Virus record (IMG/VR): IMGVR_UViG_3300032235_000212
Location: 1 to 28,399 of that record
Length of the DNA: 28,399 bases
Direction: 5' to 3' (one strand)
DNA from: a virus
A model generated the notes under the pieces. That model did no database searches and was not told the origin of the DNA. It saw only the letters and a program-made list of their open reading frames with translations. Below are positions 4,215-28,399 of the stretch, piece after piece (positions within the stretch are counted from its first letter, which is position 1; each line of letters begins with the position of its first letter). The position numbers were made by a program, and so were the translations under genes.

Positions 4215-5297
4215 ATGTCTGCAACACTCGCAGCTCCACAGTCCCGAGTTAATCCTTGGGACTCTTATCTCAGCTGGGTAACCAGCACTAACAACCGTCT
4301 TTATATTGGCCACTTCGGGGTTCTCATGATCCCGTGTTTGCTGGCCGCTACTGCTTGTTTTATTCTTGCATTCATTGCTGCGCCTCCTGTTGACATTGAT
4401 GGGATCCGCGAACCTGTCGCTGGGAGCCTTCTCTATGGAAACAACATTATATCGGGAGCCGTCGTTCCGAGCAGCAATGCCATCGGACTACACTTCTACC
4501 CAATTTGGGAAGCTAATTCACTTGATGAATGGCTCTACAACGGCGGCCCTTTCCAACTCACAGTGTTCCACTTCCTCATTGGCATCTATGCTTACATGGG
4601 ACGAGAGTGGGAACTTAGCTATCGATTAGGGATGAGGCCCTGGATCTTTGTCGCATACTCCGCACCAGTCGCAGCCGCTACGGCAGTCTTTCTTATCTAT
4701 CCATTCGGGCAGGGCTCCTTTAGCGATGCCATGCCACTGGGTATTAGCGGTACGTTCAACTACATGTTGGTATTCCAAGCCGAACACAACATTCTCATGC
4801 ACCCGTTCCACATGTTGGGTGTCGCTGGCGTTTTCGGTGGCTCACTGTTCAGTGCTATGCATGGTTCGCTGGTTACGTCCAGCCTTGTTCGTGAAACGAC
4901 TGAAGAGATCTCTCAGAACTACGGTTACAAGTTTGGGCAGGAAGAGGAAACCTACAATATCGTAGCTGCTCATGGTTACTTTGGACGTTTGATCTTCCAA
5001 TATGCATCATTCAATAATTCTCGTAGCTTGCATTTCTTCCTTGCTGCTTGGCCTGTTGTTGGTATCTGGTTTGCTGCTTTGGGCGTTTCGACCATGGCTT
5101 TCAATCTTAATGGTTTCAACTTTAACCAATCTTTGGTTGACAATCAGAACAATGTTATCCCTACCTGGGCGGACATCCTGAATCGTGCTGGGCTTGGCTT
5201 TGAAGTCATGCACGAACGCAATGCTCATAACTTCCCACTTGATCTAGCCAGTGCTGAAGTAACTCCTGTTGCTTTGGTAGCTCCTGTGATTGGCTGA
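4215..5297 (+). CDS. psbA: Photosystem II reaction-centre protein D1
   Basis: D1 core subunit of photosystem II, 360 residues (normal length), with five membrane helices. It binds P680 chlorophylls, pheophytin, QB and the Mn4CaO5 cluster. Visible landmarks (standard D1 numbering, this protein being shifted by +1): Tyr161 (FLIYP), Asp170 (SFSD), Glu189-His190, His198 and His215 ([17 protein letters not shown]), and the C-terminal ligands in [18 protein letters not shown]. The CtpA cleavage site after DLA344 and a short C-terminal extension are present. Position 130 is Glu ([11 protein letters not shown]), the D1:2 high-light/stress form in Synechococcus. Phage D1 replaces turnover-prone host D1 during infection. 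No Shine-Dalgarno is evident; the gene starts eight bases after the RlpA-like stop. The first two-thirds and last third differ in base composition. Confidence 0.98.
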
Positions 5298-7110: not shown

Positions 7111-7126
7111 CAATCTTTCTATATCG

Positions 7127-7156
7127 GGGATCCCTTAACCGGGGTCCCTTTTTTTT
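7127..7156 (+). terminator. Strong rho-independent terminator after capsid block
   Basis: Bases 7127-7134 (GGGATCCC) pair with 7141-7148 (GGGGTCCC) over eight positions, one of them G-U, with a six-base loop TTAACC, followed by eight T (7149-7156). It lies 16 bases after the last capsid-block gene and 23 bases before the tail tubular A gene. T7 has its T-phi terminator at the equivalent place after gene 10, so it likely limits read-through to favour capsid protein synthesis. Confidence 0.92.
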
Positions 7157-14241: not shown

Positions 14242-17200
14242 CAATGAGCCCCTACGCTGCAGATGATGAAGAACTGAGGCGTCTAGAGGAAGAGGCACGG
14301 GCTGAAGAGCAAGCATTGAGTGCTGCAGCCCCTGCTTATGATCCTAATACAAATGCCCCCAAGACTATGTTCACGGAGGCTACACCAGCTGAGAACAAAG
14401 CTGCTGGTAATGTACAACCAGTCAAGTCACCAGCAGAGCAGGCAGTTCAACAGCTGACAGGTGGTGGTGATCAGCAGGAATATAGCCTGGGTGATCGTGC
14501 TAGGTACGTTGCTGAACAGTCCCTGGCTGTACCTGCTGGTATTATTGACTTCGGCATGGATGCCATTGGGCGTATTCCTGGTGCTGAATGGATTGATGAT
14601 TCCTGGGATGCTAAGACAAAGTTCAAGAATCCTGCCTTCCAGAAGGTACGTGAGGTATCATCTATCCTTGTACCTAGTATTGCTGTAGGTATTGCATCTC
14701 GTAACCTGACTGCTGTTAGTAAAACTGCCTCTATCACTGGTGGTGGTAGTGCTGTTGCTCGTGGTCTTGCTGCTCTTGGCATTAACGTTGCTGGTGATGT
14801 CGCTATTAACACCATCAGTGATCAGTCCGAAGGTGATACTATCTCGACTGTTGTGAAGGAAGCTGCACCGTGGCTACCTGTTCCTGATGCCCTGGTGGTT
14901 AAGGACACAGATACTCCCGAGATGCGTCGTCAACGTAACATCTATGAGTCGGCTGGTATCAGTGTAATTGGTGATATCATCGGTTATTCAGCTGCTGCTG
15001 GTCGTGGTATCATGGATTGGTTCAAACCAAACGATACAGCAGCCAAGGAATTCATGGCTTCTGAAGCACTGGTTAATGCTGACTCTGCTACAGCCATTAA
15101 AACGTCTGAACTTGATACACAACGTGCAGCTCTTGAAGCAGAACTGGATGCAATATCAGCACAAGTACCTAGGAATGAAGAGGAACTGATTGCTCAAAGC
15201 ATTCAGATCAGTGACCTTGATGCACAAATCAAAGGCTTGAAAGACGAATCCAGCAAGTTGAATCAGCAGTACACCACAACGGGTGCCTCAGATGTCACTG
15301 AGAGCCCCCTAGAATCGTTTGTAGAGCGCCAACAGACCAGCCGGGATATGCAGATAGATGAGGCCGGTAAGCAGCGCCTTATGGACGATCCTGAAGGGGC
15401 TACTGGTATTGACCCGATGATCACCCCTAAGATCTTCCCAGAGGGTTCTACTGCTGCTCTTAGCGTACCTCCTGGTAATGTAGCCAGGAACATGGCTGAT
15501 ACTACTGCTATCAAGATGGGAACCACCACTGGTACCCCTGCACCCATCCTGTCGGAGAGGGCCTACTATGACCTAAGTAAGGGTAATAGTAAGTCTCGTG
15601 ACATCCTGGAAGGTTTAGCTGAAGGTACCAGGGAGGCTGGTAACTTTGATGCTATCGTTGATGGGTTCAGGTACACCAAGTCACAGATGAGTGATGCTGC
15701 CTGGAAGATCTACACAGACATCATCGGTACTGGTAATGTATCTGACCTGAAGAGTTTGTTCCTGGATAACCGTGATGTGAAGCACCTGTTGGATGGTCGT
15801 AAGATTAAGTACATCAACGACATTCAAGCAGAAGGTATTGGCTTTGCTATGCGTGAGCTGACCGATAAGTACCTTGGTAGGGTTGTTAATGAGACATCCG
15901 CTCGTGCCATGGATACTGTTGGCCGTGAGATCTCTGACATTGCTGAAGGTTATAAGGCATTCCCTGAGAGTGCTGACTTCGATCGTGTTACTGAGATGAT
16001 TGGTGACCGTCTTGCATTCCTCATGGAAGAATACGCACTGAATAAGTACGTTGCAGGTTGGGCACTTAGGAACCAAGATCGTTGGAAGAAGTTCCTGGAG
16101 AAAGCACCGGATAAGGAATCAGCCCTCCGTGAGATCACCAATGAGTTCGACTTAAAGGCACAAGAGAAACACGCTCAATCCCAAGGTTATCGGGATATGA
16201 TTCGTAGGATTGCTACGGAACGTCCTGATGCAGCACAGCCACTGATTGATGCATTTGCATTGTCTAAGGGTGATGTGGATACCCTGGATAAGTTAATGAA
16301 ATGGGCAGCCAAGCAGGTAAGCCCGATGGGTCTTATCTACAGTAGTGATGGTGGTCTTAATGCATTTGCACAAGGTGCTTGGGCGGTACGTTATAACAAC
16401 ATGTTGTCTGGTATCTCTGCACTTAAGGCTATCACTGGTACTACCATTAACTTGAATCTTCGTACCAGCAATGCCTTCCTGGGCACTGGTATCGGTATGC
16501 TAATGGGTAAGAACACACCAGAGGATCTCCGTAAAGCTACCTATGTCTACAGCTCTTGGTGGACTGTAAACAAACGTGCTATGGGTGATGCTTGGGATAC
16601 GTTTAAGCGTACCTGGAACAATGGTCGGTGGGGTAATGATAACAAGATGGACTTCCGTGAGCTAGCTCGTGAAGACCTTGTTACCGACTATAACCCAAGT
16701 CTTTGGGATACCCTGGCTGATATGGAAGCCGTGTGGGAAAAGGATGGTGATTGGGGGCGTCTCTTCCAGTATAGATCTGCTCGTCTCCTGTATGATCTAG
16801 GTAACTGGCGTTGGACTAAGTATGGTCAGAACGCTATGATCGCTACTGATGCCTACACACAGACTACTGTGGCTTCCCAATTGGCTCGCTCCAGGGCATG
16901 GGATGAAGTATTTAGCATTGGTTACAAAGGTAGCGAGTTAGCTCAACAGTTGGCTAAGGCTGAGAAGCTTGCTTACGATGAAGCATTTGATGCTGCTGGT
17001 AACCTAACTGATGCTGCTGCTAAGAATGCATCTGGTGAGATTGCTCTTAACTTGGATGATGAGATTGCTACATGGTTGACCCGTGGTATCAACAAACTAC
17101 CAATTCTCAAGTCATATTTTGCCTTCCCTAAGACCGGTGTTAACGGTGTGAAGTACGCTATGTCTTACACCCCCATCGCTACTCTCCCTGGTATGAATAA

Positions 17201-18413
17201 GTTCTCCAAGGTGTTGTCGGCTGGTGATGACATGGACAAGATCAAGGAAGCATTGAGGGATCATAACATATCCTATGATGCTGAGCCAAATGGTTTATCT
17301 ATTTTCAAAGGTATTGAAGCCGAATATCGTGGTCGCCTTGCTTTTGGTGGTTTACTTGCTACTTCTATGATTGGGTATGCACTTGGTGGTAATATCCGTG
17401 GTAACGGTCCTGTTAATCCAGGTGAACGTAAGAAGCTTCGGGATAATTTTAACTGGCAACCAAAAACTATTAACGTTGCTGGTAAGTGGGTCAGCTATGC
17501 TGGTTATGAACCACTTGATACCATCCTGACACTTGTCGGTGACCTGGCATATTACTCACGGGATATTGGCTCTACCTTGACTGAGGACTTTATTGATAAA
17601 CTGGCTTGGACTATCTCTGCTACATTTGTCAATAAGACGTGGACTGCTGGACTGGAGCCTGTTGTTGCTGTTGCTAACGGTGACGAGACAGCTATTACCC
17701 GCTTCCTTGCTAATGAAGTACGGTCTGCTATCCCTATGTCTGGTGCCCTTGGTGTCGTCTCTAACGCCATCACAAGCTCCCAGAAGGACATCTACAACGA
17801 TCTCATTGGGTATGTAACCAATAAGGTCCCAGGCTTCTCTAGTAAGCTTCCAGAGCAGATTGATATCTACACTGGTAAACCACTCAATGACATTGATAAT
17901 CCTGTGCTTCGTGCTATTAATGCTGTTAACCCAGTTAAGATCAGCGAGGGTACAGAACCATGGCGTCAATGGCTTATTGATACTGGATGGGATGGTGTGC
18001 AGATGATCCGTAAGGACAGTACTGGTAACCACGAATATACTCCACAGGAACGTGAGACCCTGTACAAGTATATTGGTGAACAACAAATCTGGAAGGAGTA
18101 CGACAAACTCAGCCGTAACAAGAAGTACAACGATCAGCTGGATCGTATCCGTGCTATGCGTGTTCAAGGTCGTCCCTCTGAGGAGATCAATGCTGCTCAA
18201 AGTGAAGCGTACACTGTACTAACTAAAGTTATTAGTGATGCACAGAAGATCGCTGAACTTCGTATGCAACGCGATAACGAACCGATGTGGCGTTCCATCC
18301 AGGAGTCTATCTATAATAAGAACCTGATGGGCCAGGGTCGTATCGATGATGCTGCCAGGGCCGCTGATCGCAGGAAAGCTGAAATTCAGCAACTTACTCA
18401 AATGTACCGATAA
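14238..18413 (+). CDS. Internal virion protein, T7 gp16-like, without visible transglycosylase domain
   Basis: The largest protein here (1391 residues, T7 gp16 1318), placed where gp16 belongs. The N-terminal 40 residues are very acidic, and no SLT lytic transglycosylase motif (ESxxxPxA-like) is visible, unlike T7 gp16. Hydrophobic patches (near residues 135-190 and 1020-1060) separate long helical regions; residues 285-345 form a probable coiled coil. WTKYGQNAMIATDAYTQTTV and FAFPKTGVNGVKYAMSYTPI are conserved-looking segments typical of cyanophage gp16 proteins. Likely role: part of the trans-envelope ejection channel and DNA translocation. It overlaps the gp15-like gene by four bases and is followed six bases later by the tail fibre. 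Confidence 0.88.
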   Translation: MTMSPYAADDEELRRLEEEARAEEQALSAAAPAYDPNTNAPKTMFTEATPAENKAAGNVQPVKSPAEQAVQQLTGGGDQQEYSLGDRARYVAEQSLAVPAGIIDFGMDAIGRIPGAEWIDDSWDAKTKFKNPAFQKVREVSSILVPSIAVGIASRNLTAVSKTASITGGGSAVARGLAALGINVAGDVAINTISDQSEGDTISTVVKEAAPWLPVPDALVVKDTDTPEMRRQRNIYESAGISVIGDIIGYSAAAGRGIMDWFKPNDTAAKEFMASEALVNADSATAIKTSELDTQRAALEAELDAISAQVPRNEEELIAQSIQISDLDAQIKGLKDESSKLNQQYTTTGASDVTESPLESFVERQQTSRDMQIDEAGKQRLMDDPEGATGIDPMITPKIFPEGSTAALSVPPGNVARNMADTTAIKMGTTTGTPAPILSERAYYDLSKGNSKSRDILEGLAEGTREAGNFDAIVDGFRYTKSQMSDAAWKIYTDIIGTGNVSDLKSLFLDNRDVKHLLDGRKIKYINDIQAEGIGFAMRELTDKYLGRVVNETSARAMDTVGREISDIAEGYKAFPESADFDRVTEMIGDRLAFLMEEYALNKYVAGWALRNQDRWKKFLEKAPDKESALREITNEFDLKAQEKHAQSQGYRDMIRRIATERPDAAQPLIDAFALSKGDVDTLDKLMKWAAKQVSPMGLIYSSDGGLNAFAQGAWAVRYNNMLSGISALKAITGTTINLNLRTSNAFLGTGIGMLMGKNTPEDLRKATYVYSSWWTVNKRAMGDAWDTFKRTWNNGRWGNDNKMDFRELAREDLVTDYNPSLWDTLADMEAVWEKDGDWGRLFQYRSARLLYDLGNWRWTKYGQNAMIATDAYTQTTVASQLARSRAWDEVFSIGYKGSELAQQLAKAEKLAYDEAFDAAGNLTDAAAKNASGEIALNLDDEIATWLTRGINKLPILKSYFAFPKTGVNGVKYAMSYTPIATLPGMNKFSKVLSAGDDMDKIKEALRDHNISYDAEPNGLSIFKGIEAEYRGRLAFGGLLATSMIGYALGGNIRGNGPVNPGERKKLRDNFNWQPKTINVAGKWVSYAGYEPLDTILTLVGDLAYYSRDIGSTLTEDFIDKLAWTISATFVNKTWTAGLEPVVAVANGDETAITRFLANEVRSAIPMSGALGVVSNAITSSQKDIYNDLIGYVTNKVPGFSSKLPEQIDIYTGKPLNDIDNPVLRAINAVNPVKISEGTEPWRQWLIDTGWDGVQMIRKDSTGNHEYTPQERETLYKYIGEQQIWKEYDKLSRNKKYNDQLDRIRAMRVQGRPSEEINAAQSEAYTVLTKVISDAQKIAELRMQRDNEPMWRSIQESIYNKNLMGQGRIDDAARAADRRKAEIQQLTQMYR

Positions 18414-18419
18414 CCTTAA

Positions 18420-19454
18420 ATGGCAATCACAGAAACTTTACGTAATGGAGACGGGTCCAATCTAGGGCCGTTTTCATTTGATTTTGAATGGCTTAATTCA
18501 GCTGATATTAAGGTTACGGTTGATAACGTCCTGAAGACAGCTGGAACTGATTACAACCTTCAAGGTTTGTCCTATTCAACTAAGGACGGTGGTGAGGTAC
18601 TATTTACGGCTGGTAATGCTCCAGCTGTAGGTACAGGTAACATCCGCATCTACCGTCAAACTAGTAATGATGAGTTGACCTCCACCTTTTATTCGGGTTC
18701 AGCCATCAGAGCACAGGACCTGAATAATAACTTTACCCAAGGGTTGTATGTCGCACAGGAGACTACTAACAACTCCGTACAGGATGTAGGCAACGTAACA
18801 CTTGCTGCCAACTACACCTTTAATGCACCACCCAGCGCTCCTGCTCCTACGTCTGGTAGTCACCTTACTACCAAGTCGTATGTTGATACGCTTGTAACTG
18901 ACACAGCCTTTATCTCAGGTAACCTGTCTGTTGGGGATAAGGGTGACCTGACTGTTAACAGTGCCTCCAACTGGACTATTGATCCACTGGCAGTAACAAC
19001 TGCTAAGATTGCAAACAGCAATGTAACCTATGCCAAGATTCAAAACGTCAGTGCTACCAACCGAATCCTCGGAAGAAGCAGTGCTGGTGCTGGCGTAGTT
19101 GAGGAGATTGTCTGCACAGCTGTATCTCGGGATCTCCTCTCTGCTGTTGATGTAACCACATGGCGCACATACTTAGGCATTAACGATTTTGTTTCCATTA
19201 CAGCAGTAAGTAAGACTCTTGACAACCGAGAGCGTTGTACAGTTACGGCAGCTGGATTAACTATAACCCTTCCTTCCGCACCATTGCCTGGATGGGAAGT
19301 ATCCGTGTCCGTTGCTGGGTCATTTACCGATACTATTATCGCCAGAAATTTCTCTAATATTATGTCCCTTGCTGAAAACTTTACTATAAACGTACCGAAT
19401 ACAACCGTTACCCTTGTCTACATTGACGCTACCCGTGGCTGGAGGATCTTCTGA
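18420..19454 (+). CDS. Tail fibre protein with T7 gp17-type N-terminal domain
   Basis: A receptor-binding fibre, 344 residues. The N-terminal 120 residues match the T7 gp17 virion-attachment domain: LRNGDGSNLGPFSFDFEWLN, IKVTVDN, then GNIRIYRQTSNDEL and FYSGSAIRAQDLNNNFTQGL. A shaft region carries the recurrent fibre motif LAVTTAKIANSNVTYAKIQN followed by RILGRSSAGAGVVEEIVCTA. The C-terminal 100 residues are beta-rich and end WRIF. It is shorter than T7 gp17 (553 residues), so the receptor-binding tip may be supplied by the following proteins. The stop overlaps the next start (TGATG at 19452-19456). Confidence 0.93.
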   Translation: MAITETLRNGDGSNLGPFSFDFEWLNSADIKVTVDNVLKTAGTDYNLQGLSYSTKDGGEVLFTAGNAPAVGTGNIRIYRQTSNDELTSTFYSGSAIRAQDLNNNFTQGLYVAQETTNNSVQDVGNVTLAANYTFNAPPSAPAPTSGSHLTTKSYVDTLVTDTAFISGNLSVGDKGDLTVNSASNWTIDPLAVTTAKIANSNVTYAKIQNVSATNRILGRSSAGAGVVEEIVCTAVSRDLLSAVDVTTWRTYLGINDFVSITAVSKTLDNRERCTVTAAGLTITLPSAPLPGWEVSVSVAGSFTDTIIARNFSNIMSLAENFTINVPNTTVTLVYIDATRGWRIF

Positions 19455-20419
19455 TGTCTGTTCTTACTCAATTCCTTAGTGGTTCAGCATTGGGCATCCC
19501 CGCACAAATTATTATGTGTGGCGGCGGCGGCGGTGGCGGCGGTGGAAACACTAGGCCAGGTGGCGGTGGAGGTGGTGGAAACACGAGTTGTGGTAATGTA
19601 CCTTTATCTGCAAATTATATTTATACTGTCACAGTTGGTGCTGGTGGCTCTGGTGGTGCCACCGGTTTAAAAGGCACTAACGGCGGTACAACTCTGTTAG
19701 GTGCAATTGCTGCTTATGGTGGTGGTGGTGGTGGCGCTGGTTCTAATGCTGCTAGTGCCGCTATCAATGTCGGAGTGCCGTGTAGTGGATGTGGTGGTGG
19801 TGGTGGAGTCCATAATACTGGACTGGCATCACCTGGCACACCTGGTTTTAATAAGTTTTCATACCCAGGTTACTATGCACCTACTAACGGGATGAGCGCT
19901 ACTTACGGCTATTTTAATAGTCTTGGTGGGTACACTGGTACTGCTGCTGGTGGTACTGCTGCTGGTGGTGCTGGCGGTGGTGGGGGTGCTGGTTCTGATG
20001 GTGGTGCGTACAGTGGTAGTTCCCAAGGTTCTACCGGTGGTAGTGCCGGTGGTCATGGACTAGATATCTATGGCACTGGCACGTATTTGTTTACACAATT
20101 GGGTGCTGGAGGAGGGGGAGGTTCCAACACTAGCGCTACATTTGGTGGAGCAGGTGGTAATAATGACGCTGGTAATGGAGCAAGCCCTGTTGCAATTGGA
20201 ACAGCTGGTGTAGCTACCAAAGGTGGCGGTGGCGGCGGTGGAGCAAGTACCACTAACACTGCTGGATACAACGGCGGAAGCGGAATTATAATTATCTCCT
20301 ACCCCGACGTATTTCCTGCAGCTATTGTCACAGGCAGCCCAGCAATTGATACCACATCCCGTCCTGGCTTCCGTATTTATCAATACACTGGCTCCGGTAC
20401 TTTTATGGTGACTGCATAA
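19454..20419 (+). CDS. Glycine-rich fibre or adhesin protein
   Basis: A 321-residue protein with at least six poly-glycine runs (longest nine Gly near residue 23). They alternate with beta-type segments such as YIYTVTVGAGGSGGATG, and the chain ends FRIYQYTGSGTFMVTA. This matches glycine-rich domains known in phage fibres and adhesins, where poly-Gly II helices pack into a sandwich with loops that recognise the host. It starts on the last base of the gp17-like stop and ends on the first base of the next ATG (TAATG). The GGT/GGC repeats at DNA level are a likely source of slippage variation. A tip adhesin role is inferred. Confidence 0.85.
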   Translation: MSVLTQFLSGSALGIPAQIIMCGGGGGGGGGNTRPGGGGGGGNTSCGNVPLSANYIYTVTVGAGGSGGATGLKGTNGGTTLLGAIAAYGGGGGGAGSNAASAAINVGVPCSGCGGGGGVHNTGLASPGTPGFNKFSYPGYYAPTNGMSATYGYFNSLGGYTGTAAGGTAAGGAGGGGGAGSDGGAYSGSSQGSTGGSAGGHGLDIYGTGTYLFTQLGAGGGGGSNTSATFGGAGGNNDAGNGASPVAIGTAGVATKGGGGGGGASTTNTAGYNGGSGIIIISYPDVFPAAIVTGSPAIDTTSRPGFRIYQYTGSGTFMVTA

Positions 20420-20718
20420 TGGCACACTTTGCTAAACTAAACGAAAATAATATGGTTACTCAAGTCATTGTTATTAACAACCTTGAGTGCCTGGATGAAA
20501 ACGGTAATGAATCCGAAGCAGTCGGCGTTGCCTTCTGTAAATCGCTGTATGGTCAGGACTCCAACTGGGTTCAGACCAGTTACAACGGTAATATCCGTGG
20601 CATCTACGCTGGTGCTGGCGATACCTACGACGACGTTAATGACATCTTTGTAGCTCAAGAACCAGACCTGACTCCACTGCCAGTACCTGAAACACTTCCC
20701 GAACCAGTAAATCCATAG
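20419..20718 (+). CDS. Conserved cyanophage tail-region protein (MAHFAKL family)
   Basis: A 99-residue protein beginning MAHFAKLNENNMVTQVIVIN, continuing AFCKSLYGQDSNWVQTSYNG and YAGAGDTYDDVNDIFVAQEP. Proteins with this MAHFAxLDENNxVxxVIVVNN start and WVQTSYN centre are widespread in cyanophages, usually next to fibre genes. The usual C-terminal Trp-rich segment (PxPSWxLNEET-like) is missing here and replaced by a Pro/Glu tail. Function is unknown; an association with the tail or fibre is inferred from context. It is coupled to the glycine-rich gene by TAATG. Confidence 0.85.
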   Translation: MAHFAKLNENNMVTQVIVINNLECLDENGNESEAVGVAFCKSLYGQDSNWVQTSYNGNIRGIYAGAGDTYDDVNDIFVAQEPDLTPLPVPETLPEPVNP

Positions 20719-20731
20719 GAGCTAATCAATT

Positions 20732-21064
20732 ATGTCTACCACTCATAACATTAACAACAACGCTTATGTTGACCATGTAGAGCCACTGGGTACTCCTGGT
20801 GTCGCTCGTCAACTCACGGCAACCACCACTTCTCAGAATACTGCCCTTACTTCTAATATCTCCCGTATCAGCATTCGTGCTCGTAACTGCGACATTCGAT
20901 ATGTGATTGGTGTAGGGACTCAAACTGCTAATGCTTCCACAAGCCACTTCATTGCTAATGGAGAGCGACTTGATCTGGCTGTACCATTCGGAGCAAACAT
21001 TGCTGTCATCCGTGAAAGCACAGCCACCGTCAATGGTTCGCTGGCCGTTACTGAGCTTACCTAA
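20732..21064 (+). CDS. Small beta-rich fibre-region protein
   Basis: A 110-residue beta-rich protein. The segment from NISRISIRARNCDIRYVIGV through STSHFIANGERLDLAVPFGA and NIAVIRESTATVNGSLAVTE resembles a compact phage domain found beside or at the end of fibres in many podoviruses and siphoviruses. Its pattern is a string of short beta strands with a SHFI-x3-GERLD core. AGGAG in front of the start (20717-20721) gives a ribosome-binding site. A cap or binding domain of the receptor apparatus is a reasonable inference. Confidence 0.82.
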   Translation: MSTTHNINNNAYVDHVEPLGTPGVARQLTATTTSQNTALTSNISRISIRARNCDIRYVIGVGTQTANASTSHFIANGERLDLAVPFGANIAVIRESTATVNGSLAVTELT

Positions 21065-21066
21065 TC

Positions 21067-22890
21067 ATGAGACTGCTTGGCACCAAGCTGGCGGCAAACT
21101 CTTCGCATCGTGGGTTTGGTGACCAGCTTTATAACCTATCAGGTCAACTCCCTTCATTAGATCTTAACTTCTTTGGTAACAAAAGTCTTACTGATTCCAC
21201 TACTGGGCGTAACCTGATCGACTTCACCCGCGCCAGTAGCGGCACGTTCGTGGGCAGCGACGGGCTGATCAAGACGGCGGTGACGAACCTGCAAACCTTC
21301 TCTGAAGAGTTTGGCAATGCTGCTTATGGCGTCTCTGCTGGGTCAGTTTCAGGGACCAATGTCGGCATTGCTCCAAACGGTGCATCCACGGCAGACGAAG
21401 TAACAACTACAGGCGGTGGAGTCTTTAGATCGCTTACCGCTGCCACTACAGCTATTTACACCGCAAGCGTTTATGCAAAGTACGTGAGCGGAGGTACAAG
21501 TTTTTCGTTTGGGTGCGATAGCAACCCATCAAACGCTCGCACTGTATTTAATCTGCAAACAGGTGTAATAGTCTCTAACGGTGCCAGTGTTACCTCTTCA
21601 AGCATTACGCCTATGGGTAACGACTGGTACAGGTGCTCAGTGACTTTTGTATCAACCAGCACGAGCATCATTCTTGTTTACTATAACGCAACGTCTGGAT
21701 CAAGATATCTACTCTGGGGCGCCCAACTAGAGCAATCCCCCACCGTCGGCGAATACATCCCCACCACCAGCGTCATCAACTCAGCCCCGAGGTTCGACCA
21801 CAACCCCACGACCGGCGAAAGCCTGGGGCTGCTGGTGGAGGAGCAGAGGACTAACAGCGTTACCAACAACACAATGGTTGGGGCTGTAGCTGGTACGCCT
21901 GGGACGAATCCAACTGGTTGGCTTTATGCTTCAGCTCAAAGCAATGGATTGACAATCAGCATCGCAGGTGCTGGCGTTGAAAATGGAATCAACTATATTG
22001 ACTATAGATTCAACGGAACAACTGTCGCCACTCCCAACGCTTGTGCAATTGGCGTTGCTAATGGAACAGCGGCTACAGGGCAGACTTGGACTGCCTCTGT
22101 ATACTGGAAACTCGTAGGCGGAACCAGTAGCGGAGTTGCTAGCTGGCAACTCGGAATTATTGAAAGCACTTCAGTTGGTGCTTTTGTTTCAGGTGCTTTT
22201 TACTCCCAAACCGCACCAACATCTGCTGCGTTGATTACGCAAAGACCTTCGGCTACTAGGACGCTATCCGGTGGTGCAACCGTTGGGTTAGCTTCTTATG
22301 TGCTGCATATTCCCGTAGTAGGCAATACCGCTGTTGATTTTACCATCCGCTACGGTCTGCCCCAGCTAGAACAAGGCGCCTTTGCTACCAGCGTTATCCC
22401 AACTTCCGGCACAGCCGCCACCCGCAGCGCAGACGTGGCCAGCATCACGGGCTCAAACTTCAGCAGCTGGTATCGGCAGGATGAGGGGACAGTGCTTGTT
22501 GATGCTGCAAGGAGTCCCGCCGTAACAGGTAGATACCCGAACGTCGGCAACTTTAGCGATGGCACTGGTTCAAACCGGATCCAAATCTACGGCCTTGACT
22601 ATGGCGACAGATACACCCACGAGATTGTTTCAGCAGGAAGCCCGCAGGTTGCATTCAACCAGTCGCAACTATTCACCCCAAATACGTTCAATAAGCTGGC
22701 AGTGGCTTACAAAACAAACGACACTGCCTTTGTTGCTGGTGCCTCACTAGTTCTTGCGGATAGCTTGGTAACACTACCAGCAGTGAATCAATTATCAGTG
22801 TCTGGGGTAGATAGCCGCACCATCCGCCGCCTCACCTACTGGCCCACTCGCCTCAGCAATAACACCCTTCAGCAGATCACCCAACCATGA
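21067..22890 (+). CDS. Tail adhesin with duplicated carbohydrate-binding-like domains
   Basis: A 607-residue protein of lectin type. Residues 45-70 (LIDFTRASSGTFVGSDGLIK) and 237-260 (RFDHNPTTGESLGLLVEEQR) are the two halves of a common phage fibre lead-in. A beta-sandwich module with a TASVYAKYVSGG/WYRCSVTF pattern, ending LWGAQLEQSPTVGEYIPTT, lies between them. A second related module (TWTASVYWKLVGG, ending LPQLEQGAFATSVIPTSG) spans about residues 275-445. A concanavalin/LamG-like region (SSWYRQDEGTVLVDA onward to RRLTYWPTRLSN) completes the protein. The ends of both modules share a QLEQ-x7-IPT motif, which suggests internal duplication. Base composition varies: 21220-21300, 21770-21850 and 22340-22460 are noticeably GC-richer, a mosaic pattern. 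Likely host-surface glycan binding. Confidence 0.85.
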   Translation: MRLLGTKLAANSSHRGFGDQLYNLSGQLPSLDLNFFGNKSLTDSTTGRNLIDFTRASSGTFVGSDGLIKTAVTNLQTFSEEFGNAAYGVSAGSVSGTNVGIAPNGASTADEVTTTGGGVFRSLTAATTAIYTASVYAKYVSGGTSFSFGCDSNPSNARTVFNLQTGVIVSNGASVTSSSITPMGNDWYRCSVTFVSTSTSIILVYYNATSGSRYLLWGAQLEQSPTVGEYIPTTSVINSAPRFDHNPTTGESLGLLVEEQRTNSVTNNTMVGAVAGTPGTNPTGWLYASAQSNGLTISIAGAGVENGINYIDYRFNGTTVATPNACAIGVANGTAATGQTWTASVYWKLVGGTSSGVASWQLGIIESTSVGAFVSGAFYSQTAPTSAALITQRPSATRTLSGGATVGLASYVLHIPVVGNTAVDFTIRYGLPQLEQGAFATSVIPTSGTAATRSADVASITGSNFSSWYRQDEGTVLVDAARSPAVTGRYPNVGNFSDGTGSNRIQIYGLDYGDRYTHEIVSAGSPQVAFNQSQLFTPNTFNKLAVAYKTNDTAFVAGASLVLADSLVTLPAVNQLSVSGVDSRTIRRLTYWPTRLSNNTLQQITQP

Positions 22891-23186
22891 CTTATTACCT
22901 CCGCTTCCCCGACGAAGCCACCGGCATGGCCGCGCTAACCGAAGCCGGTTTCACCATCACTGATGACGACGGCAACACCACGATCCTGACCGCCAGCCAC
23001 ACCCATGCGCTGGACGTGATCGGCCTCATCAGCATCGGTGGCGAATACGATCCCGAAACTGGTGAGGTGATCACCGCTCCCACGGTGCTGGACGGCTGGC
23101 ATGTGAACTACATCGGTGAGCTGCCTGATGAGTGGGACGCCTATGTGGTGAGCCCTGAGCAGCCGGTGCGGGTGTTTGCCTGTTAA
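22887..23186 (+). CDS. Small GC-rich tail-associated protein, unknown function
   Basis: A 99-residue protein beginning MTYYLRFPDEATGMAALTEA and ending DGWHVNYIGELPDEWDAYVV then PEQPVRVFAC. Short proteins with a YLRFPDE start and a GWHVN-x-DEW end are common next to tail fibre genes of phages and prophages of many bacteria, but their role is unknown. A hand count of 22921-22980 gives 37 of 60 GC, well above the surrounding late genes. It overlaps the adhesin by four bases (ATGA), so the pair probably moved together. Confidence 0.85.
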   Translation: MTYYLRFPDEATGMAALTEAGFTITDDDGNTTILTASHTHALDVIGLISIGGEYDPETGEVITAPTVLDGWHVNYIGELPDEWDAYVVSPEQPVRVFAC

Positions 23187-23206
23187 CTAATTATTGGTAC
23201 AAACTA

Positions 23207-23413
23207 ATGCTTACCATCTTTGGGGTCAAGGTTTCTTACGAGACCTTGGCCTTTTTTATTCTCTTTATCACCTCCGAATACCTCGGTCTAACTAAGAAGC
23301 GCCGCTCCAACAGCGTCACCCAGGCTATCTCTATGGCTGCTGCTTACTTCAGCAAGACTCGCACTGAAGATGACCGGATCCGTCGCCTGCGTCGGGCATT
23401 CACACGGAAGTAG
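23207..23413 (+). CDS. Holin candidate (one membrane segment)
   Basis: A 68-residue protein with one hydrophobic segment (LAFFILFITSEYLGL, about residues 14-28), a short N-terminus and a strongly basic C-terminal half ending RIRRLRRAFTRK. It lies directly before the endolysin. This size, topology and position fit a small phage holin that permeabilises the inner membrane to release endolysin, although a single-helix protein could also be an accessory lysis protein. Codons 6-17 coincide with a strong terminator hairpin (23224-23257), so full-length expression needs read-through. The only in-frame Met after the start lies past the membrane segment, so a later start would lose it. Confidence 0.72.
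   Translation: MLTIFGVKVSYETLAFFILFITSEYLGLTKKRRSNSVTQAISMAAAYFSKTRTEDDRIRRLRRAFTRK
23222..23257 (+). terminator. Intragenic rho-independent terminator within holin gene
   Basis: Bases 23224-23235 (GGTCAAGGTTTC) pair with 23240-23251 (GAGACCTTGGCC) over 12 consecutive positions (ten Watson-Crick, two G-U), with a four-base loop TTAC. Six T follow (23252-23257), then ATT. This is the strongest terminator-like structure in the window, and it lies inside codons 6-17 of the predicted holin, between the tail-fibre block and the lysis block. Confidence 0.85.
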
Positions 23414-23417
23414 GACT

Positions 23418-24398
23418 ATGGTTCTACTTAAAGTCCCCCAATACTATGTTCAGACGGACTCTGCCACCAGGCACGGAGATCGCATGTGTTTTTCAAGCAC
23501 TTGTGCGATGGCAATCAAGTATCTCCGTCCTGAAGCTCTACTTGGCAGTAACGCTGATGATGATTACCTCCGTACCGTCCTGAAGTACGGAGACACAACT
23601 GAATATACGTCCCACATCAAAGCTTGTAAGGACTACGGTATCACCGCTACCTTCTATAAGAATGGAACCAAACAAGCCCTACTTAGTGAACTGAAGAACG
23701 GCTTCCCCACAGCCACAGGCATCCTTCATCGGGGTCATGCCTCTGCTCCCCGTGGTGGTGGACATTGGATGCTCCTGATTGGTGACGAAGGTGGTAAGGG
23801 TGTCTTCCACGATCCATACGGTGAGATGGATAACGTCAACGGTGGATACGTCAAGATTGGTTCAGGTGGCCAGGGAGTTAAATATTCCTGGGTCAACTGG
23901 CTAAAACGATGGGAAGTCGAAGGCCCCCGTACTGGCTGGTTTATGACCTTCCGTGCCGTGTCTACCCCGTCCCCTAAGCCTTCTACCGCTAATACATGGG
24001 ATGGCGTTGTAGCCGCTGCTAAGGCTGCTGGAGCGAAGTTCCCCGACGTTGTAGCAGCACAGTGGGCCCTTGAGAGTGGCTACGGTAAACACACATCTGG
24101 TACCAATAATTACTTCGGCATCAAATCAGGCAAGGATGGTGAGGGTTCCCTTGTGTCAACGACTGAATTCGTTGGTGGCATGGAGATCAAAACTGATGCC
24201 TGGTTCAAGAACTTCCCGTCTCTTGATGCCTGCGTCTCATACATTGTAGATCGCTGGTACAAAGACTATAAGGGTTACAAGGGTGTTAACCGTGCTTCTA
24301 CCCCGACGGAATGCGCCCAACTGTTGGTACGTGAGGGATATGCAACTGATCCCGCTTATGCGGACAAACTGATACGTATTTTACGGGAACATGGTTGA
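23418..24398 (+). CDS. Two-domain endolysin: C39-like peptidase plus glucosaminidase
   Basis: A 326-residue lysis enzyme. Residues 5-185 resemble the C39-like cysteine peptidase fold: VPQYYVQTDSATRHGDRMCF with candidate nucleophile Cys24, GGGHWMLLIG with His116, and HDPYGE with Asp132. Residues 195-326 resemble a FlgJ-type glucosaminidase (FPDVVAAQWALESGYGKHTS, putative Glu219, then NNYFGIKS and the final YADKLIRILREHG). The enzyme should cut both a peptide bond and a glycan bond in peptidoglycan. I choose ATG 23418, not the in-frame ATG at 23370, because it follows the upstream stop, has TAGGA in front, and begins the C39 domain properly. No signal peptide is visible, so release through a holin is expected. 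The glucosaminidase closely resembles the domain in the gp15-like protein. Confidence 0.88.
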   Translation: MVLLKVPQYYVQTDSATRHGDRMCFSSTCAMAIKYLRPEALLGSNADDDYLRTVLKYGDTTEYTSHIKACKDYGITATFYKNGTKQALLSELKNGFPTATGILHRGHASAPRGGGHWMLLIGDEGGKGVFHDPYGEMDNVNGGYVKIGSGGQGVKYSWVNWLKRWEVEGPRTGWFMTFRAVSTPSPKPSTANTWDGVVAAAKAAGAKFPDVVAAQWALESGYGKHTSGTNNYFGIKSGKDGEGSLVSTTEFVGGMEIKTDAWFKNFPSLDACVSYIVDRWYKDYKGYKGVNRASTPTECAQLLVREGYATDPAYADKLIRILREHG

Positions 24399-24636
24399 GG
24401 CAATTATCACCGGAGTGGCATCCCTTGTTATTGGTGTTGGTGGAGGCGTAGCTTCTCTAACAAGTAGGACGAATGCTCGTATGGATCGAATTGACAAACG
24501 TATTGATGAGATTGAACTACGCCTGGCTGAGAAGTACGTCCCACGCCAAGAACTTGCTAACGCCTTACAAAAGATGGAGGATCACATGATCCGCATCGAG
24601 AACAAGCTAGATCAGATTGTACTGAGAAATGGCTAA
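24391..24636 (+). CDS. Membrane-anchored coiled-coil protein, spanin-like or holin-like candidate
   Basis: An 81-residue protein with an N-terminal hydrophobic helix (IITGVASLVIGVGGGVASL, residues 5-23). A heptad-like, highly charged coiled coil follows to the C-terminus (RMDRIDKRIDEIELRLAEKY, then KMEDHMIRIENKLDQIV). A single N-terminal anchor followed by a coiled coil is the architecture of Rz-like inner-membrane spanins; small holin-associated proteins also look like this. No Rz1-type lipoprotein gene is seen nested in it. It overlaps the endolysin by eight bases and the endonuclease gene by eight bases. A lysis role is inferred from context. Confidence 0.72.
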   Translation: MVEAIITGVASLVIGVGGGVASLTSRTNARMDRIDKRIDEIELRLAEKYVPRQELANALQKMEDHMIRIENKLDQIVLRNG

Positions 24637-25057
24637 GAAAATCTGCACTAAATGCGGAGTAGAGAAAGAACTTAATGAGTTCTATCGAAATAAATATGGC
24701 CCTCAAGGTAGATCTAGTGAGTGTAAAAATTGCACAAACGCTAGGCAAAAGGCCAACTACGATCCTACCAAAAGTAGAGCTAAAAATTTACAAAATAGAT
24801 TTGGTATGTCTCTTGAGGACTATGACCAGATGCTGGCAAACCAAAACAATCAATGTAGTATCTGCGGAACAGATAATCCAGGAAATAAAGGTCGATTTGT
24901 AGTCGATCATAACCACGACACTGGTGAAATACGCGGGCTTCTTTGTTGGTCCTGCAATGTAGGAATCGGACACTTACAAGATAACCCTTCTATTATTTTA
25001 TCCGCTTTTAACTACTTATCTACTAACGGACACTATGGCACACAAAAAAGCGAGTGA
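24629..25057 (+). CDS. Endonuclease VII-type HNH nuclease
   Basis: A 142-residue protein of the recombination endonuclease VII (His-Me finger) family. The core is RFGMSLEDYDQMLANQNNQC (residues 58-76), CSICG (76-80), VVDHNHDTGEIRGLLCWSCN (91-110, with D93, H94 and H96 at the active site and C106, C109 completing the zinc site) and a closing GIGHLQDNP. An extra N-terminal zinc ribbon (CTKCG at 6-10, CKNC at 32-35) is present. Relatives resolve DNA junctions or act as free-standing homing nucleases. A hand count of 24781-24840 gives 20 of 60 GC, far below the neighbours, suggesting recent acquisition. Its 3' end overlaps the small terminase gene by 23 bases. Confidence 0.9.
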   Translation: MAKKICTKCGVEKELNEFYRNKYGPQGRSSECKNCTNARQKANYDPTKSRAKNLQNRFGMSLEDYDQMLANQNNQCSICGTDNPGNKGRFVVDHNHDTGEIRGLLCWSCNVGIGHLQDNPSIILSAFNYLSTNGHYGTQKSE

Positions 25058-25286
25058 AGATACTTTCAATCAATTACATAACCTTGTAACTAGTGAGTTC
25101 TTGGCTCGCATTAAATCAGGTGAAGCCTCTACTGCTGATTTAAAGGCGGCTTGTGATTGGTTGTCCAAGAATGACATCAGTGGTGTCGCTTACGACGGTA
25201 ACCCATTGGATAAGCTTGCCACTATTATGCCCAAGGTAGACCCCGAACTTATACAAACGAGGCTATATGGCAAGTCGCACCTCTAA
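25035..25286 (+). CDS. Small terminase subunit (DNA maturase A), T7 gp18-like
   Basis: An 83-residue protein matching cyanopodovirus small terminases, which recognise the concatemeric DNA and regulate the large subunit during packaging. The pattern TFNQLHNLVTSEFLARIKSG followed by ASTADLKAACDWLSKNDISG (one helix, then the Ala-Asp-Leu helix and the Asn-Asp/Gly turn) and NPLDKLATIMPKVDPE is typical. Length is close to T7 gp18 (89). It begins within the last codons of the endonuclease gene and overlaps the next gene by 20 bases. A large terminase is not found in the window and probably lies downstream. Confidence 0.85.
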   Translation: MAHKKASEDTFNQLHNLVTSEFLARIKSGEASTADLKAACDWLSKNDISGVAYDGNPLDKLATIMPKVDPELIQTRLYGKSHL

Positions 25287-25521
25287 GTACTACAAGGCCA
25301 ATCCTGAAGCTAAAGCCAAACGACTTAAGCAACAGGCCGCTTACAACAAGACAAAGGAGGGTCTCAAGATCCGTACCGAAGCCAATCAACTGAACAGGAA
25401 GTTGGGTACCTACGGTAATGGTGACGGCAAGGATGCCAGCCATACGGGGCCCAATAAAGGCAAACTGGAATCACCAAAGGCCAATCGTACTCGCCCACGT
25501 CGGGGAAAGAAATATGGCTGA
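25267..25521 (+). CDS. Small basic phage protein, conserved unknown
   Basis: An 84-residue, very basic protein: SKYYKANPEAKAKRLKQQAA near the start, then YGNGDGKDASHTGPNKGKLE and a final NRTRPRRGKKYG. The combination of KYYxxNPEAxxKK, GxGDGKDASH and a basic NR tail recurs in small phage proteins near terminase genes. Function is unknown; nucleic-acid contact is suggested by charge. It overlaps the small terminase by 20 bases and the lysozyme-like gene by eight. Confidence 0.82.
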   Translation: MASRTSKYYKANPEAKAKRLKQQAAYNKTKEGLKIRTEANQLNRKLGTYGNGDGKDASHTGPNKGKLESPKANRTRPRRGKKYG

Positions 25522-26104
25522 TCCAATGAAGATCCGTAGTCCACAAATGGATACCGCCATTCGTATGTTAACAGACGGTACATTTAGTAAGGCTACGGGT
25601 CGTAAAGTTCCAGCATTCAGTCTTGAACAGGCTGCTGCCCTGGTGGGTAATGCTATGCATGAGACTGGTTCACCAAACCTGTCAAACATGGATGTCGTTG
25701 AACGTGGCAATGGTGGAGCTGGTCGGGGACTGATGCAATACACGGGTCCACGTCGTGAAGCTTATGACCGTGCTAATCCTGGTAATGACATGTCACGGCA
25801 GATGCAGTACGCAGCACAGGAGTACGCAGGTAAGCATGATCCAGGTGGTAACTCCCTGATTGGTTATACACGTTCTCTGGAGACTACTCCACGTCGTGAT
25901 GTGACTGCTGCTACGACTCACCTTCTCAATAACTACTTCCGTCCGAGTGACCCTGAAGCCAGTCGTAAGGAACGTGTTGCTAATGCCAAGGCCGTTCTCA
26001 AGATTTACCAGGGACTGACTAAACCCAAACCTAAACCAAAGGCTAAACAGCAACAACCAAACATGCTTAGCAATGTTTTAAAGATATTTGGCTTTGCTCG
26101 GTAA
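25514..26104 (+). CDS. Tail-lysozyme-like protein
   Basis: A 196-residue protein whose residues 35-150 resemble the phage tail lysozyme fold (Phage_lysozyme2 type): FSLEQAAALVGNAMHETGSP with the probable catalytic Glu in HETG, then GGAGRGLMQYTGPRREAYDR (GLxQxTGxRR motif) and AAQEYAGKH. The C-terminal 40 residues are Lys/Pro/Gln-rich and end in a short hydrophobic tail (NVLKIFGFAR). I choose ATG 25514, which overlaps the previous gene by only eight bases, over the in-frame ATG at 25418; the earlier codons only shadow the preceding gene. In relatives the domain is part of tail tips; here it is a free-standing gene among packaging genes. Confidence 0.83.
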   Translation: MADPMKIRSPQMDTAIRMLTDGTFSKATGRKVPAFSLEQAAALVGNAMHETGSPNLSNMDVVERGNGGAGRGLMQYTGPRREAYDRANPGNDMSRQMQYAAQEYAGKHDPGGNSLIGYTRSLETTPRRDVTAATTHLLNNYFRPSDPEASRKERVANAKAVLKIYQGLTKPKPKPKAKQQQPNMLSNVLKIFGFAR

Positions 26105-26431
26105 ATGACTCCACTACTGCCCAGCCCTGATCACTACCTCCATAACCTAATAACGATGACAAGCTCTGAAGCAAAGAGGCTACACCGTCGTGCAATTAAA
26201 GAATACTTTAACTGTCAATGTGTTTATTGCGGAGAAACTTATGAATTACATGAACTTACACTTGATCACGTTCGCCCTAAGTGTCTTGGTGGCGAAGACC
26301 TTACATCAAATCTCGTGCCAAGTTGTCGGAAATGTAATCAGGCTAAAGGTAGTAGAAATTGGTTACAATGGATGAGGGATACATTTGGTCCCACACCTAG
26401 AGAAACACTTATTCTATCACACATTAACTAA
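26105..26431 (+). CDS. HNH endonuclease (probable free-standing homing nuclease)
   Basis: An HNH protein of the type common in cyanophages and cyanobacteria. With the first ATG it has 108 residues; ATG at 26156 (91 residues, beginning MTSSEAKRLHRRAIKEYFNC) is more like the family start and is the likelier one. In 108-residue numbering, the core is CQCVYCG (C39, C42), LTLDHVRPKCLGGED (H55), LTSNLVPSCRKCNQAKGSRN (N69, C74, C77), then WLQWMRDTFG. Base composition of 26161-26220 (24 of 60 GC) is lower than that of the preceding gene. It sits between the lysozyme-like gene and a basic protein gene, typical of a mobile endonuclease insertion. Confidence 0.9.
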   Translation: MTPLLPSPDHYLHNLITMTSSEAKRLHRRAIKEYFNCQCVYCGETYELHELTLDHVRPKCLGGEDLTSNLVPSCRKCNQAKGSRNWLQWMRDTFGPTPRETLILSHIN

Positions 26432-26433
26432 TC

Positions 26434-26808
26434 ATGATTGGTAAAAAGAAGGACGACAAACAAAGCAAAAATCGTGGATCCGTTGCTGAAAGCATTAAAG
26501 AGTTCGGTAGTCGTATGACTGCTGCTTCGATGTCACGCCGTCAAGGTCGTAGCAACCTGACCTCCGATGACCTCTCACCAAAGGCCAAGGGTGGTTCTGC
26601 CACTGTAAAACAGGCACCCAACGGTAAGGAGTACGCTGGCCCCGGCTACGGTGAATACAAGAAGAAAGAAGCAGGGGGACAGGAACAGGTTAAGTACAAG
26701 AAACCTGAGCGTCGTCGTCCCACAGGGCGGGAAGAAATAATTGCCCAACGGTACATGGATAACGAGGACAAAAAGAAAAAGGGCGGGTCTAACGTTGTTG
26801 GGAGCTGA
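26434..26808 (+). CDS. Highly charged, disordered-looking protein, unknown function
   Basis: A 124-residue protein dominated by Lys, Arg, Gly, Ser and Glu, with very few hydrophobic residues. Features are VAESIKEFGSRMTAASMSRR near residues 17-36, a GPGYGEYKKKEAGGQEQVKY region and a PERRRPTGREEIIAQRYMDN helix before a Lys-rich tail. No family is recognised. Its codon choice is normal for the late region, unlike the genes on both sides, so it probably belongs to the original packaging block. Confidence 0.75.
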   Translation: MIGKKKDDKQSKNRGSVAESIKEFGSRMTAASMSRRQGRSNLTSDDLSPKAKGGSATVKQAPNGKEYAGPGYGEYKKKEAGGQEQVKYKKPERRRPTGREEIIAQRYMDNEDKKKKGGSNVVGS

Positions 26809-26817
26809 GTAATCCCA

Positions 26818-28254
26818 ATGGATAAGGAGTTATTTCAGCTACTGGCTGAAACTGCAGTTAAACTGCAAAGTGAAAGCGAGCCTCTTATTAAAACAAAGCA
26901 ATTATCTAAATCACCTACAGTTAGAGCTTACGCCAATGTTGTAAATCAAGGTGATGATTTATTTGCTGATATCTTGTACAAATACCTTAACGGTGATGTA
27001 GAAGTAGACGAAGCTGTTCGTAAACTTAATAACCGTGAAGGTGCTCTTATTAAAGCTGGTAATTACTATCAACGACTAGAAGGGCACCATCCTATTTATC
27101 AAAAACTACTAGCAAATAGATTATTCCAAGCTGAGCCCGAAAAGGCCCTTGAAGTAATTAAAATTATTAGAGATCAGTTGCCTAGCAACATGAGTCCTGG
27201 CACTGATCCTGATAAATTAATTTATACCACTAGGGATTTACACGGTATTATTGGACATGGTGGTAACTTTAAGTCCAATACTATGGGTCAAATTAATACT
27301 GAAGTTACACCAAAAGAAATTGTTGATCAACTGTATCCAGATCTTGTAGATGCTGTTTATAGAGCTGGTTATTTGGAGACTAATCCGGCTCAACAATTGA
27401 TGGTTAAAAAGGCTGGTGAAGCTTTGGGTATGCCTGATCCAGATAAACAGTCTTTAAAAGTTAGGCAATCCCTTGCTAAACAATCTAAAACATTTCCAAT
27501 TTTACCTAGTCAATTAGAAGGAGTACCAGAAGCTACTGCTAGAGTTGTACCACCTGATACAGGTAATGTTGGTAGACTTGGTATTACAAAATTATCTGAT
27601 GTTTATGACCTTGGTAAAGCAAGAGGTGGTTTAAATATAGGTGCAACCTTACCTGTACCAATCCCAACAGGATCACAACTAAGGCAGAATGCTTTAGGTG
27701 TGGGTGCTGGAGCTGTAACTGGTGCTATTACCCCAGAATCTGCTTATGCTGCTGGTAAAGGTGATTGGAGGACTGCTGCAGTGGAGGGTGTTAAAGCTGC
27801 AACGACTGGTGCTGTAGTTGGTGGAGCTACGCAGGCTGCTCTTACTTCTTTAATGCCGAGGGCCGCTGCAGCTTTAACTAGTGGACCGGCTGCGCCTTTG
27901 GTTGCTGGCGTCAGTGCTGGTCTAGCTTTACAAGATGCTGCTCAAGCATTTAGAGCCGGGCAAAGCGGTCGCTCTATTCCACTTCAAAGGAAAATTGAGC
28001 AAACGCAACAAGATAGACGTCGGCAACAAGACGTAGCTAAATTCCGTGCTGCAATGCCTGGTCCAGCTAGTAACAGACGTATGCAAGCAAACTTGTCTGG
28101 TAACTTATCACCACAACAGATTGAATCGTTTAGAGCTGGTGGTGGTAGTGCTGCTATGATGCGCGATGGATTGTCTGTACAACAAGTTATTGAACGCGGC
28201 TCATCGTTACGACTTAAAAAGATCGTCAACAATACTATTCGAGATCAAGTTTAA
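26818..28254 (+). CDS. Large AT-rich gene: possible GHH-type nuclease core with Ala/Gly-rich hydrophobic C-terminal half
   Basis: A 478-residue protein I cannot assign to a named family. Residues 77-150 show a pattern reminiscent of HNH/GHH superfamily nucleases: YYQRLEGHHPIYQKLLANRL (G89-H90-H91), then NMSPGTDPDKLIYTTRDLHG and IIGHGGN (H142, H147). This arrangement occurs in nuclease domains of phages and polymorphic toxins, but a nuclease call is tentative. Residues 280-370 are Ala/Gly/Val-rich (VGAGAVTGAI, AATTGAVVGGATQAAL, LVAGVSAGLAL), like glycine-zipper membrane segments. The last 90 residues are basic and Gln/Arg-rich. A hand count of 26881-26940 gives 20 of 60 GC, so it differs strongly from the late genes. 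It may be an ejected virion protein, a mobile gene or an effector. Its stop overlaps the next start (TAATG). Confidence 0.8.
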   Translation: MDKELFQLLAETAVKLQSESEPLIKTKQLSKSPTVRAYANVVNQGDDLFADILYKYLNGDVEVDEAVRKLNNREGALIKAGNYYQRLEGHHPIYQKLLANRLFQAEPEKALEVIKIIRDQLPSNMSPGTDPDKLIYTTRDLHGIIGHGGNFKSNTMGQINTEVTPKEIVDQLYPDLVDAVYRAGYLETNPAQQLMVKKAGEALGMPDPDKQSLKVRQSLAKQSKTFPILPSQLEGVPEATARVVPPDTGNVGRLGITKLSDVYDLGKARGGLNIGATLPVPIPTGSQLRQNALGVGAGAVTGAITPESAYAAGKGDWRTAAVEGVKAATTGAVVGGATQAALTSLMPRAAAALTSGPAAPLVAGVSAGLALQDAAQAFRAGQSGRSIPLQRKIEQTQQDRRRQQDVAKFRAAMPGPASNRRMQANLSGNLSPQQIESFRAGGGSAAMMRDGLSVQQVIERGSSLRLKKIVNNTIRDQV

Positions 28255-28399
28255 TGGCAAAACCAGAAAAGAAGGAAGAGTCTAATCCCCTGGTTGACCT
28301 TATACGTAAAATTAAGATTGCATATGCTATTGGTAAAGATCCAGTAGTTAGTGCAATGGCTAGTCGTGGGTTTACACCATCTAAGAATGCCGCATTAAA
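28254..28399 (+). CDS. Partial gene, unknown function (cut by window end)
   Basis: A reading frame starting on the last base of the previous stop (TAATG) and open to the end of the window, 48 codons. It begins MAKPEKKEESNPLVDLIRKI and continues IAYAIGKDPVVSAMASRGFT. The charged start and following amphipathic segment do not identify it. Translational coupling suggests it is co-expressed with the large AT-rich gene. Confidence 0.65.
   Translation, partial: MAKPEKKEESNPLVDLIRKIKIAYAIGKDPVVSAMASRGFTPSKNAAL

Follow-up and report, generated by a model that had tools for sequence, protein, structure and literature searches.

Why would an element with the form of a rho-independent terminator lie within a reading frame, at the point where the fibre genes of a cyanophage give way to its lysis genes? 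Such an element is found on the + strand at 23224-23257 of the IMG/VR virus record IMGVR_UViG_3300032235_000212, whose 28,399 nucleotides were analysed as a whole and are called the window here. The sequence comparisons described below suggest that it is probably a rho-independent terminator occupying codons 6-17 of the gene that opens the lysis block, where it would restrict how much late transcription enters the lysis genes. Little is understood of how T7-like cyanophages time lysis, and a synonymously kept terminator at the fibre/lysis junction would offer a concrete and testable control point. It would also mean that terminator predictions thrown out for lying within genes can be real. Searching the literature on cyanopodovirus termination maps, transcript ends and coding-embedded phage terminators uncovered nothing direct.

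The hairpin and the gene that carries it

The 5' arm of the stem (GGTCAAGGTTTC, 23224-23235, codons 6-10) pairs with the 3' arm (GAGACCTTGGCC, 23240-23251, codons 12-15) across the loop TTAC (23236-23239; NTAY in relatives), giving a 12-bp stem of 6 G-C, 4 A-T and 2 G-T pairs. A U-tract, TTTTTT at 23252-23257 followed by ATT, abuts this stem and is made up of the Phe-Phe codons 16-17. The initial annotation had described the stem, the 4-base loop and the six T correctly, and a check of the frame agreed with it, placing the stem in codons 6-15 and the T-run in codons 16-17. When folded as RNA, the stem gains two more G-U pairs for a total of 14, with a minimum free energy of -20.6 kcal/mol (z -5.95) that was equalled by none of 200 dinucleotide shuffles. 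Likewise, none of 2000 synonymous recodings of the window's peptide matched the native hairpin energy. The site is the sole strong terminator-like match within 15000-28399 and, when both strands of the entire window were scanned more strictly, it came first among 22 hits; an Rfam scan of the window gave no match. The sequence features expected of an intrinsic terminator are found together: a stable G+C-containing stem with a short loop at 23224-23251 (at least 5-6 pairs being expected), a U-rich tract right after the stem, and pairing that is selected beyond the protein code, as shown in the next section. Transcript 3' ends are predicted at about 23254-23260, in the U-tract.

The host gene (23207..23413, +) encodes a small protein of 68 aa with a hydrophobic N-terminal segment. 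Its only family match is phrog_15106, of unknown function (PHROG E 6.6e-17); Pfam and NCBIfam searches with the protein found no match, nor did a search of solved structures. The terminator had been placed inside the codons of a holin. Its location within the first codons of this gene holds, but the holin identity was dropped when PHROG, Pfam and NCBIfam gave no holin-family match, the label having been a guess based on the hydrophobic N-terminus and the neighbouring gene. Relatives of the gene are present in hundreds of IMG/VR contigs, and those in S-CBP1, S-CBP3, S-CBP4, DSL-LC07 and S-SRP01 carry the annotation hypothetical protein.

Upstream, the fibre block includes a tail protein gene (21067..22890, +, phrog_5939) and closes with a 99-aa ORF (22887..23186, +, phrog_18574, unknown), the stop codon of which lies 20 nt 5' of the ATG at 23207. 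Downstream is the endolysin (23418..24398, +), with a weakly matching C39-like N-terminus and a glucosaminidase C-terminus. The stem starts 17 nt past the ATG and about 35-37 nt past the upstream stop codon, and no obvious Shine-Dalgarno sequence precedes the ATG. Among the larger records of relatives tested, 7 of 8 encode a single-subunit phage RNA polymerase. Elsewhere in the window, a phage-borne psbA (photosystem II D1) is located at 4215-5297, between the scaffold and capsid genes.

Pairing at synonymous sites in two codon classes

Homologues were compared as 135 distinct genes, nearly all of which lie directly 5' of the endolysin. They fall into 37 class A genes, which include that of the window, and 98 class B genes. 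S-CBP1, S-CBP4 and S-SRP01 are isolates of class B, and no isolated phage of class A came to light. Both classes encode a near-identical peptide (G-V/I-K-V-S-Y-E-T/A-L-A-F-F) with different codons. In class A, AAG GTT ... GAG ACC TTG produces the 12-bp stem, in which paired positions sum to 63 in gene numbering. In class B, AAA GTG ... GAG RCR CTT produces a different 7-bp stem (AAGTGTC with GRCRCTT) whose pairs sum to 65 and which is sometimes lengthened by GGC/GCC. Combining GTT with RCR, or GTG with ACC, would disrupt either stem, and no gene does so. In two genes (L103 and L112) the reading frame is disrupted downstream of an intact hairpin region, through either sequencing error or real loss.

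Pairs are formed in 95.3% of cells in class A (37 genes, register 63) and 95.8% in class B (98 genes, register 65), and the share of genes with a complete stem is 70% and 73%, respectively, whereas codon randomization yields 0.5% and 0.4%; such raw counts are limited by the relatedness of the genes, and tree-based counts are the trustworthy ones. Sliding the arms against each other destroyed the pairing in the test that covered both classes. By codon-null energy alone, class B is marginal (median percentile about 0.10), and the pair-specific test is needed to reveal its signal.

For the tree-based counts, changes were scored site by site by parsimony on class-specific trees built without the hairpin region. 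In class A, the third positions of codons 8, 9, 12, 13 and 14 have undergone 0, 0, 0, 0 and 2 changes, relative to a mean of 5.9 elsewhere, and only 2 of 100000 random five-site sets are equally low. The same positions in class B show 4, 4, 4, 9 and 12 changes against a mean of 15.0 elsewhere (49 of 100000 sets equally low). The frozen third positions of both classes lie inside the stem, while the loop and flanking codons drift. For instance, the paired codon Glu12 has changed 3 times and its unpaired control, Glu24, 33 times. Codon choice at stem sites also opposes usage at the gene's other sites: GTG, which makes up 9% of Val codons elsewhere, encodes Val9 in 100 of 104 class B genes, and Ala13 is GCA in 60 of 61 genes, although GCT dominates elsewhere. 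Pairing is kept whether residue 13 is Ala or Thr, and with different codons. An overlapping gene was considered as the source of constraint and set aside, since constraint is confined to stem third positions and spares neighbouring ones; alternative frames are not all closed.

The comparison also bears on what the initial annotation had proposed to look for, namely conserved pairing with compensatory synonymous changes. Conserved pairing was found. Compensatory silent changes do occur at pairs 18-45 (G-C to A-T) and 21-42 (C-G to T-A), though in small number; counted on a tree, co-change has the expected sign but is weak (p 0.08-0.09). Had silent changes erased the stem and T-run, this would have spoken against a terminator; in class A they have not. 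Coding and RNA constraints appear to be selected together, as had been suggested, with pairing kept at synonymous sites in both classes and the T-run kept in class A. From this comparative evidence, we conclude that the hairpin is real, non-random and selected as RNA.

The fibre/lysis junction in relatives

The position of the ATG is common to phrog_15106 homologues, while the sequence 5' of it is unrelated. Even between genes that are at least 93% identical, ungapped identity falls to 0.59 just 5' of the ATG and to about 0.5 farther out. Several relatives carry a ATGACAAAAACACGTGAC stretch (MTKTRD) about 25 nt 5' of the ATG, possibly a remnant of fibre-gene exchange. Frequent replacement of the DNA just 5' of the ATG may be why the signal lies inside the gene, where a terminator would survive swaps of the fibre module. 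This suggests one possible reason for a regulatory signal to enter coding sequence: where flanking DNA is exchanged this frequently, a gene is the only vehicle able to take the signal along.

Other members of the group have terminators at this junction in the usual location. In S-CBP1, S-CBP3, S-CBP4 and others, the fibre gene is followed by a canonical intergenic terminator (GAGCCTACC..GGTGGGCTC plus T6-8), and DSL-LC07 has a different intergenic terminator at the same fibre/lysis junction. The S-CBP1/3/4 terminator shares with the element described here its junction, its strand and its position before the lysis genes, but it is non-coding, differs in sequence and lies about 400 nt upstream of the small gene. 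No canonical intergenic terminator after the fibre gene is present in the window. Within class A, intergenic terminators occur chiefly where the internal one is lost or weakened, accompanying 3 of 5 genes without a strong internal one and 2 of 29 genes with one (Fisher p 0.015, uncorrected); over classes A and B together, the exclusion between internal and upstream terminators has a p of 0.07. A terminator of the intrinsic type embedded in coding sequence at the fibre/lysis junction, as the initial annotation had it, is supported at the level of sequence.

The gene is not always found at this junction. In P60, S-CBP2 and S-CBP42 (L220, L221 and L222) the homologue sits after the endolysin, beside the small terminase gene, and overlaps its upstream neighbour; metagenomic relatives also have the gene after the endolysin. 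Pairing in these P60-type genes is at chance level, with a mean z of -0.25 (31 genes) compared with -4.45 in class A and -1.28 in class B. The contrast in position fits a function at the junction and is supportive rather than conclusive, since gene position cannot be separated from a single deep split between clades and from a somewhat different peptide. One P60-type gene in mid-operon (L273, about 2500-2580) has a strong class A-like hairpin, GTCAAGATCTC-TGCT-GAGGTCTTGGC, with no T-run and a different peptide. In three others (L242, L244 and L245), a distinct terminator-like site of -13.3 kcal/mol falls within 70 nt of the gene start.

Probable termination and other possible roles of the hairpin

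The T-run separates the two classes. In class A, TTT is used at codon 16 in 30 of 37 genes and at codon 17 in 31 of 37 (about 83%), whereas the downstream ORF uses TTT for 41% of its Phe codons. Tested codon by codon against that usage, the enrichment has a p of about 1e-6, uncorrected for relatedness. Phe20, which lies outside the U-tract, is likewise TTT-rich in class A (32 of 37). In class B the T-run is not enriched, and codon 16 even favours TTC. Judged by sequence features, the class A element is most likely an intrinsic terminator. In the case of class B, termination is only a possibility, and the conserved hairpin could have a role other than termination. Since class B keeps the hairpin without T-run enrichment, one mechanism may not cover the whole family. 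Tentatively, and with some doubt, a broader history can be proposed in which one peptide stretch has had its hairpin rebuilt in two registers (63 and 65) by concerted silent changes, tied to the fibre/lysis junction; in class A it would have become a full terminator, and in class B the codons would serve another RNA function or the ancestral one, for example processing. If this were true, a widespread cyanophage group would keep its lysis switch hidden in a reading frame, where it survives tail-fibre swapping.

Alternatively, the hairpin could act on the mRNA, as an RNase III or RNase E processing or stability element or as a structure that tunes translation near the initiating ribosome, with the T-run a by-product of the Leu-Ala-Phe-Phe codons. 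An RNA-type hairpin with G-U pairs is present in both classes and T-run enrichment in class A only, the stem start 17 nt past the ATG is near the edge of an initiating ribosome, and L273 has a strong hairpin without a T-run, all of which would suit such a role. Set against this are the ideal terminator geometry and T-run enrichment of class A, as well as the canonical intergenic terminators at the same junction in other group members. A role in translation should also require the hairpin in P60-type homologues, yet these pair at chance level. Action on the mRNA is rather unlikely.

A ribosome-controlled attenuator similar to that of pyrBI, in which the hairpin is melted, and lysis timed, by ribosomes translating from the ATG at 23207 or in the upstream ORF, is very unlikely. 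It draws on the location of the hairpin inside an ORF and on the finding that translation is able to suppress intrinsic terminators (PMC5021804; for the pyrBI leader, PMC4824070). With E. coli polymerase, however, a terminator can act efficiently when it lies no more than 100 bp into a coding region, and termination is maximal once more than about 27-30 nt separate an upstream stop codon from the terminator (PMC4824070). Distances of 17 nt from the ATG and about 35-37 nt from the stop codon therefore predict little effect of ribosomes and allow efficient termination, so that a ribosome-controlled switch is neither needed nor favoured, and the earlier idea that ribosomes are needed to prevent the hairpin is not supported. 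The lack of an obvious Shine-Dalgarno sequence also speaks against an attenuator, and neither leader-like pausing nor an alternative antiterminator stem is predicted. The pyrBI leader (pyrL) shares with this element a terminator hairpin that overlaps an ORF, but it needs control by ribosome and polymerase pausing, of which there is no sign here. The construct studied in PMC4824070 likewise has a stem-loop and U-run soon after a start codon, and the start and stop distances found here lie within its working range; it was engineered in E. coli, whereas the present element belongs to a natural phage gene with codons under selection and is a predicted terminator.

An element acting as DNA, either a palindromic protein-binding or recombination site at a module swap junction or a phage promoter, is highly improbable. 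The collapse of homology at the ATG does imply a recombination junction, but wobble pairs break a DNA palindrome, and they are common in both classes: all 37 class A genes have T27-G36, although both bases are third positions free to vary, and 55 of the 98 class B genes have T28-G37. A search for the core and for the Syn5/T7 promoter consensus in the window and in two complete genomes, S-CBP1 and S-SRP01, found the core in single copy and no convincing promoter there. The core of class A occurs in 45 IMG/VR contigs, in all 45 of them inside the phrog_15106 gene, and a dispersed element was rejected on this basis. That the hairpin has no function and reflects codon usage, protein conservation and shared ancestry is scarcely credible: the genes do form one family from related phages and Leu-Ala-Phe-Phe is T-rich by itself, but no recoding equalled the native fold, the sites that stay frozen on class-specific trees are those of the stem, and pairing persists across different peptides and codons.

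Returning to termination as the preferred reading, a polymerase leaving the fibre genes would transcribe the stem, and the hairpin would form before a ribosome could arrive from the nearby ATG. A fraction of transcripts would stop in the U-run near 23254-23260, holding an ATG without a stop codon, and the fraction that reads through would provide the full mRNA for the small protein and endolysin. Lysis-gene dosage would thereby be set below fibre-gene dosage, with read-through rather than translation setting lysis-gene output. That polymerase stops here is inferred, as are the efficiency of stopping, the enzyme responsible (the single-subunit polymerase of the phage or that of the host) and any consequence for lysis timing.

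The window also contains an intergenic terminator at the position of T-phi in T7 (7126-7156, +; GGGGATCCCTTAACCGGGGTCCCT followed by TTTTTTT), between the capsid region and tail tubular A. It ranked second in the window scan, and the same element is found in S-CBP1, DSL-LC07 and P-SSP7, so that it illustrates the form of a terminator in these phages. In LUZ100, a terminator after the capsid gene is an Autographiviridae counterpart of T-phi (PMC10134795). The related Syn5 polymerase reads through T-phi of T7 (PMC3950665), which counts against termination at 23224-23257 and calls for caution over the initial annotation's statement that most late transcripts would stop there. The element at 23224-23257 shares with T-phi and its counterparts a hairpin and U-run that partition late transcription, a role that is predicted here. 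T-phi, however, is intergenic and follows the capsid gene, whereas this would be a second terminator, located within a gene at the fibre/lysis junction.
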